NCBI RefSeq assembly: GCF_006829085.1
Contig: NZ_BJTC01000011.1
Span: forward strand, 62,001 to 126,000
Length of the DNA: 64,000 nucleotides
Direction of reading: 5' to 3'
Source: Chryseobacterium sp. ON_d1
GTDB taxonomy: Bacteria; Bacteroidota; Bacteroidia; Flavobacteriales; Weeksellaceae
Shown here one piece after another: positions 59,234 through 64,000 of the stretch. The notes below the pieces were generated by a model, which made no database searches, was not told the DNA's origin, and saw nothing but the letters and a program-made list of their open reading frames with translations. A program made the position numbers and the translations under genes. Positions within the stretch are counted from its first letter, which is position 1. Each line of letters begins with the position of its first letter.

Positions 59234-59243
59234 CTTCCAAAAT

Positions 59244-59415
59244 TATGAAAAAAGGCTGGAAGCTGGAAGAAGGATGTTGGAAGTTACTTCTGTGCAGGTA
59301 AGAACTGACTGTTTTTTTAAGTAATGTCAATGTTTTTTTAAAGGTGTATAAAATGAAGAACAATTGTTTTATATAAGACTCCATTATCTCCCTCTTCCAT
59401 CCTCCGGCCTCCTTT
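59244..59415. repeat. second copy of the purine/pyrimidine-ended dispersed element
   Basis: Begins AAAAAAGGCTGGAAGCTGG, continues GGATGTTGGAAGTTACTTC, and ends CTCCCTCTTCCATCCTCC and GGCCTCC. The two ends are roughly complementary, as in the stretch at 28786. No gene; it fills the gap between rmuC and the response regulator gene. Confidence 0.35.
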
Positions 59416-59457
59416 CTTAATTAGAATACCTATATTTATAGGAAATTTCAGAAACTT

Positions 59458-60132
59458 ATGAATATTTTGTTGGTAGAAGATGATCAAAGAATCAGCAATT
59501 TTCTGATAAAAGGCCTTTCAGAGGCCGGTTACAATATGACCCTTGCAGATTCAGGAGAAAAGGCACGCGAACTTCTTCACAGCTATGATTTTGATATTAT
59601 ATTAATGGATATCATGCTTCCAGGTTTGGATGGGATGCAGCTTACACAAGTGATAAGGTTTAAAGGAAATTATACTCCAATTCTCGTATTAAGTGCTTTG
59701 AACAGCCCGGATGATAAAATCAAAATGCTGGACATGGGCGCTGATGATTATCTGTCAAAACCATTTCATTTTGAAGAATTGATTTCAAGAATCAAAGCGC
59801 TAACCAGGAGAAATAAACTGAGCTACCAGAAAGAAGATCAGTGTTTATCATGTGGAAATATTACTATTGATACAGATCTTCATAAAGTGACACAGAATGA
59901 TAAGGAAATAGAATTCTCGCCTACAGAATACAAGCTTTTTACTTTCCTGATGGAGAATAAAAATAAGGTGCTGAGCAGAACCCAGATTTTACATAAAGTA
60001 TGGGGAATTGATTTTGATAATACGACGAATGTAGTGGATGTCTATATTTCCTATGTGCGTAATAAAATTGATGAAACAGAGCAGAAAATTATTCATACCG
60101 TAAAAGGAACAGGATACTTGATTAAAGACTGA
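59458..60132 (+). CDS. OmpR-family response regulator
   Basis: 224 residues. The receiver domain (1-120) has the acidic pocket EDD (8-10), phospho-acceptor Asp51 (LMDIMLPGLDG) and Lys101 (YLSKPF). The winged-helix DNA-binding domain (about 125-224) contains FSPTEYKLFTFLMENKNKVLSR and VDVYISYVRNKID. It is 2 bases ahead of its histidine kinase gene. The TCTAAT array upstream of the TolC gene downstream is the most obvious target. Confidence 0.95.
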   Translation: MNILLVEDDQRISNFLIKGLSEAGYNMTLADSGEKARELLHSYDFDIILMDIMLPGLDGMQLTQVIRFKGNYTPILVLSALNSPDDKIKMLDMGADDYLSKPFHFEELISRIKALTRRNKLSYQKEDQCLSCGNITIDTDLHKVTQNDKEIEFSPTEYKLFTFLMENKNKVLSRTQILHKVWGIDFDNTTNVVDVYISYVRNKIDETEQKIIHTVKGTGYLIKD

Positions 60133-60134
60133 AA

Positions 60135-61496
60135 ATGACTCTCAGAAACAGGTTTACCCTTATTTCAAGCCTTTCATTTGGCATTGTCTCTATCATCACA
60201 TCTGCGGTGATATTCTTTGCCTATTATGACAGTACCAAGATTTTTTATTTTGAAAAACTGAGAAATACGGCCCTTATTTCTGCTATTTATTATCTGGAAA
60301 AAGATGAGCTTCCTAAAGATCGGCATGCCCAGATCAAAAAAGAATACAATCATCTGATTCAGAACAACAGGGTTGCGGTTTACAATCAGAATAACAAGGT
60401 AACTTTTGGACATAATCTGAATGATAAGAATATAAAACTTTCTCATTTGAAGGCTGTAAGAAATAATAAAGGTCTGCAGTTTATGTCTGATAACCAATTC
60501 TATTATGGTATTTTTTATCCGGACAATCAGGGTGACTTTGTCGTTTTTGTAAAGTCCCCGAATGATTCTTTTCAGTCGCAGATCCTGAGACTGGCAATCA
60601 TTATGCTTTCTGTGCTGATAGTGGGACTCTTAGTGATCTATTTCCTGAGCAGATATCTTTCGAAGGTCGTTTATAAGCCTATTTCGAATGTAGTGGAACG
60701 CATTAATAAAGTGGATTATAATAATATTTCTACCGCAATTACTTCTACCAATACCAATGATGAAGTCGAAGAGCTTATTAAATCTTATAATAAACTGCTG
60801 GGAAGAATTTCTGAAAATGTACTCTTACAGCAGAACTTTATCAATTATGTTTCTCATGAATTTAAAACTCCCTTAGCAGCTATCTCTGGAAATCTTGAAG
60901 TTTTCGCCCAAAAGGACCGGACTCCTGAAGAATACAGAGAGGTGGCAAAAGAGTCATTGGAAAATGTATATGAGATTGAAAATATTCTTAACAATCTTTT
61001 GCTGATGTCCGGAATGACAAAACTTGAATCTTCTCATCAACCAATGAGAGTGGATGAGCTGATCTGGAAAATCTATGAAAAACTGGAACCCAAAGCAAAA
61101 GAAAACAATTCATCCATTAAAATAGAGCTTAAGGTAACAAAACCCGCTTTGCTGGAATTTCCGGGAAATGAGACCCTGTTGTATCTGGCATTGTATAATA
61201 TTGTAGAAAATGCCATCAAATATTCTTTTGATAAACCTGTCGTGATTACATTATCAGAAAAAGACAGCCAGCTGCATATCCGGGTAAAAGATGAAGGAAG
61301 AGGAATTCCTTCTGAAGATCTTGCCAAAATATCTGAAACTTTTTACAGAGGAAAAAATGTAGATACGGTGAAAGGCAGTGGAATTGGCCTTTCTCTTTCA
61401 AAAAACATCTTTGATCACCATAATATTCAGATGGAAATTGATTCTATTGTCAATGTTGGAACAAGCGTTCTTCTTAAATTTCCTGTTCATTTTTGA
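60135..61496 (+). CDS. sensor histidine kinase
   Basis: 453 residues. Two membrane helices (about 9-30 and 150-172) flank a periplasmic sensor region of about 120 residues. A HAMP domain (about 173-228) is followed by the phospho-acceptor His241 in NYVSHEFKTPLAAISG, the N-box VENAIKYS, G1 DEGRGIP, and G2 GSGIGLSLSKN. It is the partner of the response regulator 2 bases upstream. Its stimulus is unknown; metal or envelope stress is likely because an RND-type efflux operon follows. Confidence 0.94.
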   Translation: MTLRNRFTLISSLSFGIVSIITSAVIFFAYYDSTKIFYFEKLRNTALISAIYYLEKDELPKDRHAQIKKEYNHLIQNNRVAVYNQNNKVTFGHNLNDKNIKLSHLKAVRNNKGLQFMSDNQFYYGIFYPDNQGDFVVFVKSPNDSFQSQILRLAIIMLSVLIVGLLVIYFLSRYLSKVVYKPISNVVERINKVDYNNISTAITSTNTNDEVEELIKSYNKLLGRISENVLLQQNFINYVSHEFKTPLAAISGNLEVFAQKDRTPEEYREVAKESLENVYEIENILNNLLLMSGMTKLESSHQPMRVDELIWKIYEKLEPKAKENNSSIKIELKVTKPALLEFPGNETLLYLALYNIVENAIKYSFDKPVVITLSEKDSQLHIRVKDEGRGIPSEDLAKISETFYRGKNVDTVKGSGIGLSLSKNIFDHHNIQMEIDSIVNVGTSVLLKFPVHF

Positions 61497-61543
61497 TTGT
61501 GCTATTCGAGAAAATGTTCATGTTTTTCATGTTTTAAAAAAGT

Positions 61544-61622
61544 TCTAATCAAACTCTAATGTTGAACTAACCGAATTTTAATTTTGTTTAAAATTCCGTC
61601 TAATCTTAGACAAATAGCTTTG
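61544..61622 (+). promoter_or_regulatory. 11-bp phased TCTAAT array and promoter of the efflux operon
   Basis: TCTAAT-like hexamers start at 61544 (TCTAAT), 61555 (TCTAAT), 61566 (ACTAAC), 61577 (TTTAAT) and 61599 (TCTAAT), all on the same helical phase (multiples of 11 bp). The last lies in a perfect GTCTAA-TC-TTAGAC palindrome (61598-61611) directly before the -7 box TAGCTTTG (61615-61622). Head-to-tail repeats one turn apart are typical for OmpR-family regulators. Confidence 0.65.
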
Positions 61623-61642
61623 TGGTCTTAAAATAAGAGACC

Positions 61643-62917
61643 TTGAAGAAGCTATTTTTTACCCTATTTTATATTCATTGTTTCAGTTTCTTTTCAGCGC
61701 AGATTTCAGATACCATGAAGATCAGCAGAAAAGAGGCTGAAACGCTTTTTTTGACTAAAAACCTGGATCTGATTGCACAAAAGCTTGACATTTCACAAGC
61801 TGAAGCAAGAGCTGTTCAGGCTAAATACTGGCCCAATCCCAAATTAAGTATCAGCGAAGTTAATCTTTGGAGGACCTATGATATTGAAGAACAACCCGCA
61901 TTGATTGGAAACTGGGGGAAAAACAGCCAGATTTCTGCTGAGATAGAACAGGTGATTCAGACTGCGGGTAAAAGACGGAAAAATATTGAACTGCAGAAAA
62001 TAGAAGTGGAAGGAGAGAAGTATGAGCTGCAGGAAGTCTTACGGGAGCTTAAGAAAACACTGAGAAATACCATTACCGAAATTCTTTACAACCAGGAACA
62101 GCAGAAGATCTATCAGGGACAGATTGCTTCCATTGAAAAATTAACGAAATCATACAATAACCAACTAAGCCTTGGAAACATCAGTAAAGCTGAATATGTC
62201 CGTCTGAAAGCACAGGAAATTGAATTCAAAAAGAAACTGATTTCATTAAAACAGGAAATTGAGGACCAGCAGGTTGAGCTTAAAGCCTTATTGATGCTGC
62301 CGTCACAGTCTTATCTGATTATTTCTGATCCATTCATCATGCCTGAAAAACAACTTTCAGAGCTGGAAGTGACCCAATGGATGGAAAAAGCTAAAGAAAA
62401 CCGTCCTGATATTCTGATCGCAAAGAATAATGAAAAGCACGCTGCCAAAAACCTGGAAATTCAAAATGCCATGAAAACTCCGGATGTTGCCCTTTCTATA
62501 GGATACGACCGGGGAGGAAATATCATGAAAGACTTTATAGGATTAGGAATTTCTATGGATCTGCCCATTTTCGACCGAAATAAAGGAAATATCCAGGAAG
62601 CCAAACTGGAGATTGAGAAAAGCAAATTGGAGACCCGTAAAAATATGCTGAAATCAGAGAATGAAATTATCTCTGTTTTCAGGAACTATATCCGGACGCA
62701 GAAAGTTTCAGAAGAGATCGATGAAAATTACGAGTCTACACTGGACGGTTTGCTGGTAAGCCATGAGAAAAACTTCAGACTAAGAAATATCAGCATGCTG
62801 GAGTATATGGATTTTCTGGATACTTACATAGGAAACAAAATGATCATACTGGATACTAAAAAAGAACTTAATCAATACTACGAAAACCTGCAGTATGCTG
62901 TAGGACAAGACTTATAA
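61643..62917 (+). CDS. TolC-family outer-membrane efflux channel
   Basis: 424 residues, TTG start at 61643. Signal peptide about 1-20 (ending FFSAQ). The chain has two repeats of the TolC/CusC helical hairpin type (KAEYVRLKAQEIEFKKKLISLKQEIEDQQ; IQEAKLEIEKSKLETRKNMLKSENEI) and NPKLSISEVNLWR. It spans the outer membrane and periplasm as exit channel for an RND pump. The adaptor gene starts 3 bases after its stop. Expression is probably controlled by the two-component system just upstream. Confidence 0.92.
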   Translation: MKKLFFTLFYIHCFSFFSAQISDTMKISRKEAETLFLTKNLDLIAQKLDISQAEARAVQAKYWPNPKLSISEVNLWRTYDIEEQPALIGNWGKNSQISAEIEQVIQTAGKRRKNIELQKIEVEGEKYELQEVLRELKKTLRNTITEILYNQEQQKIYQGQIASIEKLTKSYNNQLSLGNISKAEYVRLKAQEIEFKKKLISLKQEIEDQQVELKALLMLPSQSYLIISDPFIMPEKQLSELEVTQWMEKAKENRPDILIAKNNEKHAAKNLEIQNAMKTPDVALSIGYDRGGNIMKDFIGLGISMDLPIFDRNKGNIQEAKLEIEKSKLETRKNMLKSENEIISVFRNYIRTQKVSEEIDENYESTLDGLLVSHEKNFRLRNISMLEYMDFLDTYIGNKMIILDTKKELNQYYENLQYAVGQDL

Positions 62918-62920
62918 GAT

Positions 62921-64000
62921 ATGAACAAGAATACTACTCAATACATTGCTGCCATCTACCTGTCTGCCTTAGTAATCTTTACAGGTTGTACCGGAGAAAA
63001 AGAAAATAAAGAAGCTGAAAAAGGCTATTGCATCAGCAAAGAGCTTAAGAAAGATATTAAACTGGCTAAAGCAGAAATGCTTCCCATAGAAGAAAGTATT
63101 ACGCTCACCGGAGAAGTGGAAAGTAATTCGGACAAAACAGTTCCTTTTGTAAGTCTCGTGGACGGAGTGGTGATTGATACTTATTTCTCCCTTGGAGATT
63201 ATGTGAAAAAGGGGCAGACACTGGCGAGCGTAAAGAGTACCGCTGTAAACGAAATGCAGGATGATACGCAGACTCTTCAGGCTCAGCTGGCGGTTGCGAA
63301 AAGAAAGCTGTCTTCTGTAGAAGCGATGTATAAAGATGATATTGCCTCTCAGAAAGATTTACAGGAAGCACGTTCTGAAGTCGCCATATTGCAATCTAAT
63401 ATTTCCAAAACGCAGAAAAATATGCAGCTGTACTCAGCAGGAGGAAATACCATTCAGATAAAAGCTCCGGCAGACGGATATGTTATTTCAAAGAATATTT
63501 CCAAAGGAATGCCTGTTACCGCTGGGGGAGAGCAGCTGTTTACCATTTCCAATCTGGACAAAGTCTGGGTAATGGCGAATGTATACGCTACCAATATGAG
63601 GCATGTTTATGTAGATCAGCCTGTAGTGGTAAAAACACTGGCTTATCCGGATGACAGTTTCTCTGGTAAAATCAACAATATTTCCCAGGTCTTTAATGAA
63701 AATGAAAGAGTGCTTAAAGCCAAAATCATTATGGATAATAACGGAATGAAGCTGAGACCCGGAATGTCTGCAGATGTTGTACTGCCAATTAATTCACAGA
63801 ATAAAAGCGCATTGGCTATTCCTGCAAAGGCTTTGATCTTCGATAACAATCAAAGCTATGTAGTCGTGTATAAAAAAGACTGTGAGCTTGAAATCAGACC
63901 TGTCACTGAAATTGCTTCCAACAGCCGGTATATTTATATAGAAGGAAATTTAAAGCCAGGTGAAAATATCATCGCTTCCAATGGGCTGCTGATCTATGAA
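62921..64000 (+). CDS. RND efflux periplasmic adaptor (HlyD/CusB type), 3' end outside window
   Basis: 360 codons are open to the window edge with no stop. The lipoprotein signal ends VIFTGC (Cys23). The adaptor layout is clear: LTGEVESNSDKTVPFVSLVDGVVIDTYFSLGDYVKKGQTL, a coiled-coil hairpin (QTLQAQLAVAKRKLSSVEAMYKDDIASQKDLQEARSE), then IKAPADGYVISKNISKGMPV and the beta-barrel part. An early cysteine segment EKGYCISKELKK is present. The RND pump gene should follow just outside the window. Distinct from the adaptor at 21152. Confidence 0.93.
   Translation, partial: MNKNTTQYIAAIYLSALVIFTGCTGEKENKEAEKGYCISKELKKDIKLAKAEMLPIEESITLTGEVESNSDKTVPFVSLVDGVVIDTYFSLGDYVKKGQTLASVKSTAVNEMQDDTQTLQAQLAVAKRKLSSVEAMYKDDIASQKDLQEARSEVAILQSNISKTQKNMQLYSAGGNTIQIKAPADGYVISKNISKGMPVTAGGEQLFTISNLDKVWVMANVYATNMRHVYVDQPVVVKTLAYPDDSFSGKINNISQVFNENERVLKAKIIMDNNGMKLRPGMSADVVLPINSQNKSALAIPAKALIFDNNQSYVVVYKKDCELEIRPVTEIASNSRYIYIEGNLKPGENIIASNGLLIYE

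Follow-up and report, generated by a model that had tools for sequence, protein, structure and literature searches.

The region analysed here is a 64-kb stretch of the Chryseobacterium sp. ON_d1 genome (hereafter the window), which carries genes for a response regulator and a sensor histidine kinase, followed on the same strand by the first genes of an efflux operon (Table 1). The 59458 product contains both a receiver domain (PF00072 Response_reg, 98.9 bits; cut-off 30.2) and a C-terminal winged-helix domain (PF00486 Trans_reg_C, 90.3 bits; cut-off 26.2), i.e. the domain architecture of the OmpR/PhoB family, and its helix region reads TNVVDVYISYVRNKID. Regulator and kinase are both nearest to heavy-metal subfamilies at scores that remain under the respective cut-offs: the best NCBIfam match of the regulator is TIGR01387 (CusR/CzcR/CopR; 217.7 bits, cut-off 279.2) and that of the kinase is TIGR01386 (CusS/CzcS/CopS; 151.3 bits, cut-off 292.55), and neither protein was assigned to these subfamilies. 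Downstream of the adaptor gene, beyond the window, lies the gene of an RND pump of 1028 aa, which exceeds the cut-off of TIGR00914 (884 versus 701.45 bits) and is therefore a heavy-metal pump of the CusA/CzcA type. CusA/CzcA pumps presumably carry D, D and E in the proton-relay helix, where the pump linked to the window (L013, 5037-8123) reads DFGLLLEGTLVIVE; its middle acidic residue appears to be E.

The intergenic stretch ahead of the regulator gene (59240-59420) is rich in CTTCCAGC- and GCTGGAAG-like repeats, which in relatives (flanks of L065 and L071-L076) are found just upstream of the hexamer array described below. They look like an extragenic repeat family.

Table 1. Genes and sequence elements around the hexamer array (positions within the window)
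Feature	Coordinates	Strand	Remarks
OmpR/PhoB-family response regulator	59458..60132	+	Candidate binder of the array; ORF, domain matches
Sensor histidine kinase	60135..61496	+	HisKA, HATPase_c; presumed partner of the regulator
Box 1, TCTAAT	61544..61549	+	Conservation among orthologues starts here
Box 2, TCTAAT	61555..61560	+	Invariant in the 62 orthologues read
Box 3, ACTAAC	61566..61571	+	Core TAA invariant
Box 4, TTTAAT	61577..61582	+	Core TAA invariant
Box 5, TTAAAA	61588..61593	+	Degenerate penultimate position; about where a -33 element would be
Dyad GTCTAATCTTAGAC	61598..61611	.	Overlaps box 6; ends 3 bases before the -7 box
Box 6, TCTAAT	61599..61604	+	Starts 16 nt before the -7 box
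-7 element TAGCTTTG	61615..61622	+	Bacteroidota TAnnTTTG type, by sequence
Inverted repeat GGTCT-N9-AGACC	61624..61642	+	Spans the expected transcription start, ends at the start codon
TolC-type outer-membrane channel	61643..62917	+	TTG start; OEP, 133.6 bits
Periplasmic adaptor, CusB/HlyD type	62921..64000	+	HlyD_D23; runs past the window

The kinase and TolC genes are separated by 146 bp, from the kinase stop (61496) to the TTG start (61643), and reading of this sequence revealed an exact 11-bp grid of hexamers at 61544-61604. With respect to TCTAAT, boxes 1, 2 and 6 are exact, box 4 is one letter off, box 3 two letters, and box 5 is weak. A sequence-only reading of this DNA had placed the hexamers on one helical face, beginning 48 bases past the kinase gene. 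The grid is real and has six positions, the fifth being degenerate, and the distance from the last base of the stop codon to the array is 47 bases. As the DNA helix makes one turn per approximately 10.5 bp, an 11-bp step drifts a little, and the notion of a single helical face is therefore approximate over six boxes.

In a consensus-free test of the 146-bp region, six hexamers taken at step 11 showed an agreement of 30/36, compared with 20-24 at steps 8-10 and 12-15. None of 2000 dinucleotide shuffles reached 30, the shuffle maximum being 28. When scored as six copies of TCTAAT, the array obtained 30 and the best of the shuffles 25. It was also the top-scoring site on both strands of the whole window, in which no independent site came near its score: the best value on the minus strand was 23, and the remaining plus-strand scores listed are registers of the array itself. 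The TCTAAT word is rarer in the window than expected (25 found versus 65 expected).

The TolC protein is encoded in 63 of the 148 genomes of the genus, own included (E <= 1e-60), and is absent at that threshold from 85; named relatives of the protein come from 47 Chryseobacterium loci and one Epilithonimonas locus, at no more than 95% identity, a set from which its own record may have been left out. We read the promoters of 62 of the 63 matches, leaving out G062 (a fragment with internal stops), and anchored their alignment on TAnnTTTG, which occurs no more than 40 bases from the start codon in all 62. For the sequence-only reading, orthologous promoters without the 11-bp phasing would have spoken against its model; every one of the 62 promoters, own included, keeps both the 11-bp register and its spacing from the -7 box. 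The TAA cores are invariant in boxes 1-4 and 6 and variable in box 5. Each position of TCTAA in box 1 carries 2.0 bits and the last position 1.54 bits, and the 18 columns located 2 to 19 bases upstream hold 0.8 bits or less, which makes box 1 the start of the conserved block. A seventh in-phase box (TTTAAA at 61533) was rejected because conservation stops at 61544. The spacer letters between boxes 1-3 (CAAAC, GTTG) are largely conserved among the 62 orthologues too. The C-terminus of the kinase was found upstream in 60 of the 62 promoters, the other two being at contig edges, and in the 60 loci with both ends seen the gap between the two genes ranges from 82 to 993 bp without disturbing the block.

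The Bacteroidota -7 box TAnnTTTG spans positions -12 to -5 according to the available part of the source (PMC9723704); transcription would therefore be expected to start near 61627, box 6 then covering approximately -28 to -23. A match to a standard sigma-70 promoter (TAGACA/TAAAAT, 61607-61634) found in a scan was rejected, the conserved element being TAGCTTTG. The sequence-only reading had also incorporated a palindrome touching the -7 box into the design. The dyad GTCTAATCTTAGAC exists and stops 3 bases short of that box; all six of its pairs are complete in only 24 of the 62 orthologues, and its right half has low information in most columns of the alignment. We therefore rejected it as an essential part of the promoter, and it looks incidental. 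The boxes themselves are direct repeats and do not form the inverted-repeat core of CusR/AgrR-type palindromic boxes.

Two further observations concern the region between the -7 box and the TolC gene. The arms of the inverted repeat at 61624-61642 read GGTCT/AGACC in 33 of the 62 orthologues, AGCCT/AGGCT in 4 and AGTCT/AGACT in 2 (raw counts), so that the arm letters co-vary in some relatives, and the loop is mostly 7-9; this element may be an RNA hairpin or a DNA site. The TTG start codon (61643-61645) is present in 61/62 orthologues, which is unusually stable for a weak start codon.

The ON_d1 genome encodes 12 OmpR-family (Trans_reg_C) regulators, and about 10 kb around each of them was scanned for arrays. 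Arrays scoring 21 or more were found near five of the 12, in four cases adjacent and in one case (C5b) a gene away; on the same scale the best background in the window, outside the array, was 10.9. Apart from the window, the array of C4a follows the kinase gene and precedes genes for a 164-aa protein and a membrane protein, which we take to be DUF1275-like, and that of C5a lies between the kinase gene and another TolC-type gene, with CAATTTTG as the -7 box. At C20 the array is located between the regulator gene and a divergent porin-like gene (under the family cut-off). The C5b array, about 1.3 kb and one gene from its kinase, stands before an MgtC-like gene (under the cut-off) and a gene for a magnesium P-type ATPase (over the cut-off). 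A sixth array, C1:264729 (L011, 5730-5808), has six boxes, the last of them starting 16 nt before TAGTTTTG, and is not accompanied by a regulator gene. The -7 box is 16 nt away at the window, C4a, C5a and C1, and 28 nt away, counted by hand, at C5b and C20.

None of the other seven regulators has an array at the threshold of 21. The best of them, C17a, has a GTTAAT-type triple scoring 17.4 with no TAnnTTTG behind it, and the remaining six score below 13. The five array-associated regulators share the signature TNxx(D/E)VY(I/V)x(Y/F)(L/V)RxK(I/L)D in the region that we presume, from PhoB, to be the recognition helix; TN and the aromatic residue after VYIx are absent from all seven other regulators. 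In a small tree the five do not resolve as a clade.

At C17 (L127, 2940-2980; G000:C17:74940), three GTTAAT-type words with an 11-bp step precede another kinase-regulator pair, the helix of which differs (GRSLDVFISRLR). This is possibly a second pairing of a word with a helix. Downstream of the C1 array, the first ORF of 120 aa or longer starts after about 360 nt. A search of the 97 other genomes of the genus did not find the DNA of this array, which therefore brings no phylogenetic support.

We also searched the whole genome with patterns. A two-box pattern with a variable gap to the -7 box gave 47 matches versus 40 control matches, and two boxes are thus insufficient to reveal the geometry. 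With four boxes in the exact geometry and up to 3 mismatches allowed, there were 11 matches versus 2 in the control, four of the 11 having no more than 2 mismatches.

Homologues of the kinase are encoded in 48 of 120 genomes of the family (E <= 1e-40) and in 55 of 198 genomes of the class (E <= 1e-45), own included in both counts. We scored 54 loci, a subset of the rows of the kinase search that omits L131-L135 (own genome and genus relatives) and includes the genus members L137 and L138. A four-box array with step 11 scored at least 15 in 28 of these 54 loci outside the own genome (17/25 family loci and 11/29 class loci) and at least 20 in 20 of them. At steps 7-10 and 12-16, 0-3 loci scored at least 15 and 0-1 at least 20; among shuffled loci, 10/540 reached 15 and 0/540 reached 20. 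Thus, step 11 stands out both in the window and across the 54 loci, in keeping with the direct repeats of 10-11 bp, centre to centre, that characterize OmpR/PhoB operators.

Measured from the first base of the last box, the best -7 match is 16 nt away in 23 of the 28 arrays, 27 nt in two, and 15, 29 and 31 nt in one each. The 23 arrays with the 16-nt distance span 12 genera; with ten of them in genus g21, they cannot all be counted as independent cases. Box number varies (four, five or six), the extra boxes being added at the distal end. At L164, a locus of 61% G+C with the gene order RR-HK-array-TolC-MFP-RND, the words TCTAAT, TCTAAT, TCTAAT and CCTAAT follow one another at 11 bp and the last box is located 16 nt before TACTCTTG.

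Nineteen arrays, all in the 16-nt register, were picked by hand for closer reading; the own genome contributed four of these, C5b and C20 not among them. In 18 of the 19, no TTG starts within the 30-18 nt before the TA of the -7 box, a raw count for the picked arrays. The penultimate box has T as its third letter in 9/19, compared with 19/19 for boxes 3, 4 and 6. On the sequence side, these promoters correspond to the PhoB-like kind, in which the operator takes over from the upstream sigma element and keeps a constant spacing to the downstream one.

In the six g17 genomes a homologous kinase is present and no array lies within 1.5 kb of it. In each of them, a geometry-exact search located an array on the same strand, about 6.2 kb upstream, at the TolC promoter, in the order array-TolC-MFP-RND-RR-HK. 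This rearranged order indicates that the array belongs to the pump promoter and not to the kinase end. At L274 11441 (G224:C12:31084, minus strand), a second array is found about 2.8 kb from the pump array and 16 nt from a near-consensus -7 box, TAATTTCG.

In the remaining 26 of the 54 loci the score stays under 15. When all 18 array-negative class genomes were searched with the geometry pattern at no more than 2 mismatches, matches occurred in 7 of them (13 versus 7 control matches); within genus g39 the pattern was found in 1/6 genomes. In G307, one of the 18, it lies 92 bp behind a second kinase homologue. The low-scoring loci and the sparse pattern matches suggest that the promoter grammar is common and not universal. 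The helix does not separate relatives with and without an array, because the homologues retrieved by the kinase search carry a nearly identical helix.

Based on these observations, we suggest that the array is, with high probability, an operator for the adjacent OmpR/PhoB-type regulator, which would bind it as tandem dimers, stand in for the -33 element and activate the operon of the CusA/CzcA-type pump. The neighbouring kinase, probably in response to a metal ion, would activate regulator molecules by phosphorylation, and these would bind head to tail, one molecule per 11-bp unit, giving three dimers on six boxes and two on four. Sigma normally meets the -33 element where the regulator would stand. 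The promoter-proximal boxes would take the place of this missing element, so that RNA polymerase with the main sigma factor would be recruited to TAnnTTTG and the TolC-adaptor-CusA/CzcA efflux operon would be switched on. The mostly fixed register, the missing -33 element and the growth of the array at its distal end fit activation by tandem dimers. Direct repeats at 11 bp are a known binding mode of ArcA, which belongs to the same family (PMC3798270, available part), and PhoB sites overlap the -35 element (PMC3348028, available part).

The regulator-operator model of the sequence-only reading therefore seems right in substance: the phasing held, and arrays recur near five of the 12 regulators of the genome and beside homologous kinases of other genera and families. 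Apart from the palindrome, it is the proposed autogenous control that is not indicated at the window, where no array lies upstream of the regulator-kinase genes (best score 3.1). On the other hand, the g17 operon contains the regulator genes, so control there would be autogenous. That reading did not see that the promoter design recurs, with a preference for the 16-nt register, and that the array is one instance of it.

The most serious alternative is that the array does not mainly serve its neighbour but a family of five paralogues with the same helix, whose promoters form one cross-talking network and whose specificity lies elsewhere, i.e. in kinase pairing, expression level or spacers. We regard this as possible, though rather unlikely. 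It would agree with the helix signature common to the five array-associated regulators, whose arrays are nearly one word, and with the C1 array, which lacks a neighbouring regulator gene and would thus need to be served in trans. However, the conserved spacer letters between boxes 1-3 suggest regulator-specific contacts, and four of the five arrays are directly beside their regulator pair, the fifth being one gene away.

Repression would require that the bound regulator blocks polymerase until a signal releases it. The boxes come within 10 bases of the -7 element, which is close enough for a bound protein to interfere, but a repressor needs a self-sufficient promoter, whereas the lack of a TTG in the -33 zone of 18 of the 19 picked arrays is as expected for activator-dependent promoters. 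Moreover, repressor sites have no need of an exact distance to the -7 box, yet this distance is kept in 23 of the 28 arrays. Repression is accordingly improbable here.

It is likewise very unlikely that the array binds a regulator encoded elsewhere and that its adjacency to this regulator-kinase pair is a coincidence. Binding by the adjacent regulator is, admittedly, a deduction, and the C1 array demonstrates that arrays can sit away from regulator genes. Nevertheless, the neighbourhood of array and kinase recurs in 28 of the 54 loci of other genomes, and in 6/6 g17 genomes the array and the regulator pair share one operon. Least probable of all is a structural element, in which phased TAA or A/T steps bend DNA or bind the alpha subunit of polymerase (an UP element) without any regulator, as the period near one helical turn and the A+T-rich units might suggest, since the word is kept at the 61% G+C locus L164, strong arrays in the own genome track one regulator class (5/5 versus 0/7 at the threshold of 21, the best of the seven being 17.4) and TCTAAT is rarer than expected in the window.

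If the array is indeed an operator for the adjacent regulator, then, across distant Bacteroidota, a simple and exactly spaced pattern links kinase-regulator pairs to the genes that they probably control (metal efflux, magnesium transport, a porin-like gene). This would explain how the array promoters function without a -33 element, and they would constitute a clean test bed for studies of box number versus fixed register. A broader proposal, which we put forward tentatively and to which we give somewhat less than an even chance, is that much of Bacteroidia uses one promoter grammar for a group of two-component regulators: 4-6 TYTAAT words in 11-bp steps, a series that ends 16 nt upstream of TAnnTTTG and replaces the -33 element. 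The word would be near-identical for all of them, specificity would reside in the spacers and in kinase pairing, and the number of steps, growing distally, would set the threshold or the steepness of the response. With such a shared grammar, sequence would suffice to read the regulon of any regulator in the group.

Among the literature matches listed (titles and abstract openings, with subscription papers mostly outside), there is no description of the array or of such an OmpR-family operator in Bacteroidota. An 11-bp direct repeat of F. johnsoniae that came into consideration is, according to the available part of a coevolution study (PMC10197871), located inside a tolC coding sequence and is unrelated to the array.

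The array would work like operators of the Pho-box/ArcA kind; in its word, its promoter type and its registered arrangement it is a variant not found in print among the matches listed. WalR-type sites are also direct repeats with an 11-bp period, and the words of WalR and PhoP differ from the present one. The Pho box usually consists of two repeats, versus four to six in the present arrays. PhoB binds tandem direct repeats too, its own overlapping the -35 element, and contacts to the sigma and alpha subunits have been modelled (available part of PMC3348028). In a comparison by eye, the polymerase-contact residues W184 and G185 of PhoB appear to match the W-G of KVWG in the window regulator. 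The E. coli promoter is of the -35/-10 type and its word is another one, whereas the present promoters have the Bacteroidota TAnnTTTG.

In the systems of CusR, CopR and AgrR, a regulator-kinase pair likewise lies beside a heavy-metal RND pump, and AgrR resembles the regulator proposed here in its hexamer half-sites, Type II activation having been proposed at most of the AgrR promoters investigated (PMC7380067, available part). However, the AgrR core is an inverted repeat, ATKACA-N4-TGTMAT, with optional direct repeats (PMC7380067, available part), whereas there are only direct repeats here, and the window regulator and kinase score under the NCBIfam cut-offs for those subfamilies. M. tuberculosis PhoP recognizes direct repeats with an 11-bp period as well, made of a 7-bp motif and a 4-bp spacer (PMC4832192, available part). 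Sites of the WalR/PhoP type are described as dimer sites, in contrast to the arrays of four to six boxes. E. coli ArcA binds tandem direct repeats, predominantly 11 bp centre to centre, and of the 158 sites in which an ArcA box is present, 92 contain three to five repeats instead of two (PMC3798270, available part). The word is different, and the number and spacing of the ArcA repeats are variable, whereas here the array mostly stands at one fixed distance from the core promoter; ArcA is a global regulator, whereas the present array is close to one specific regulator pair and to its probable target.
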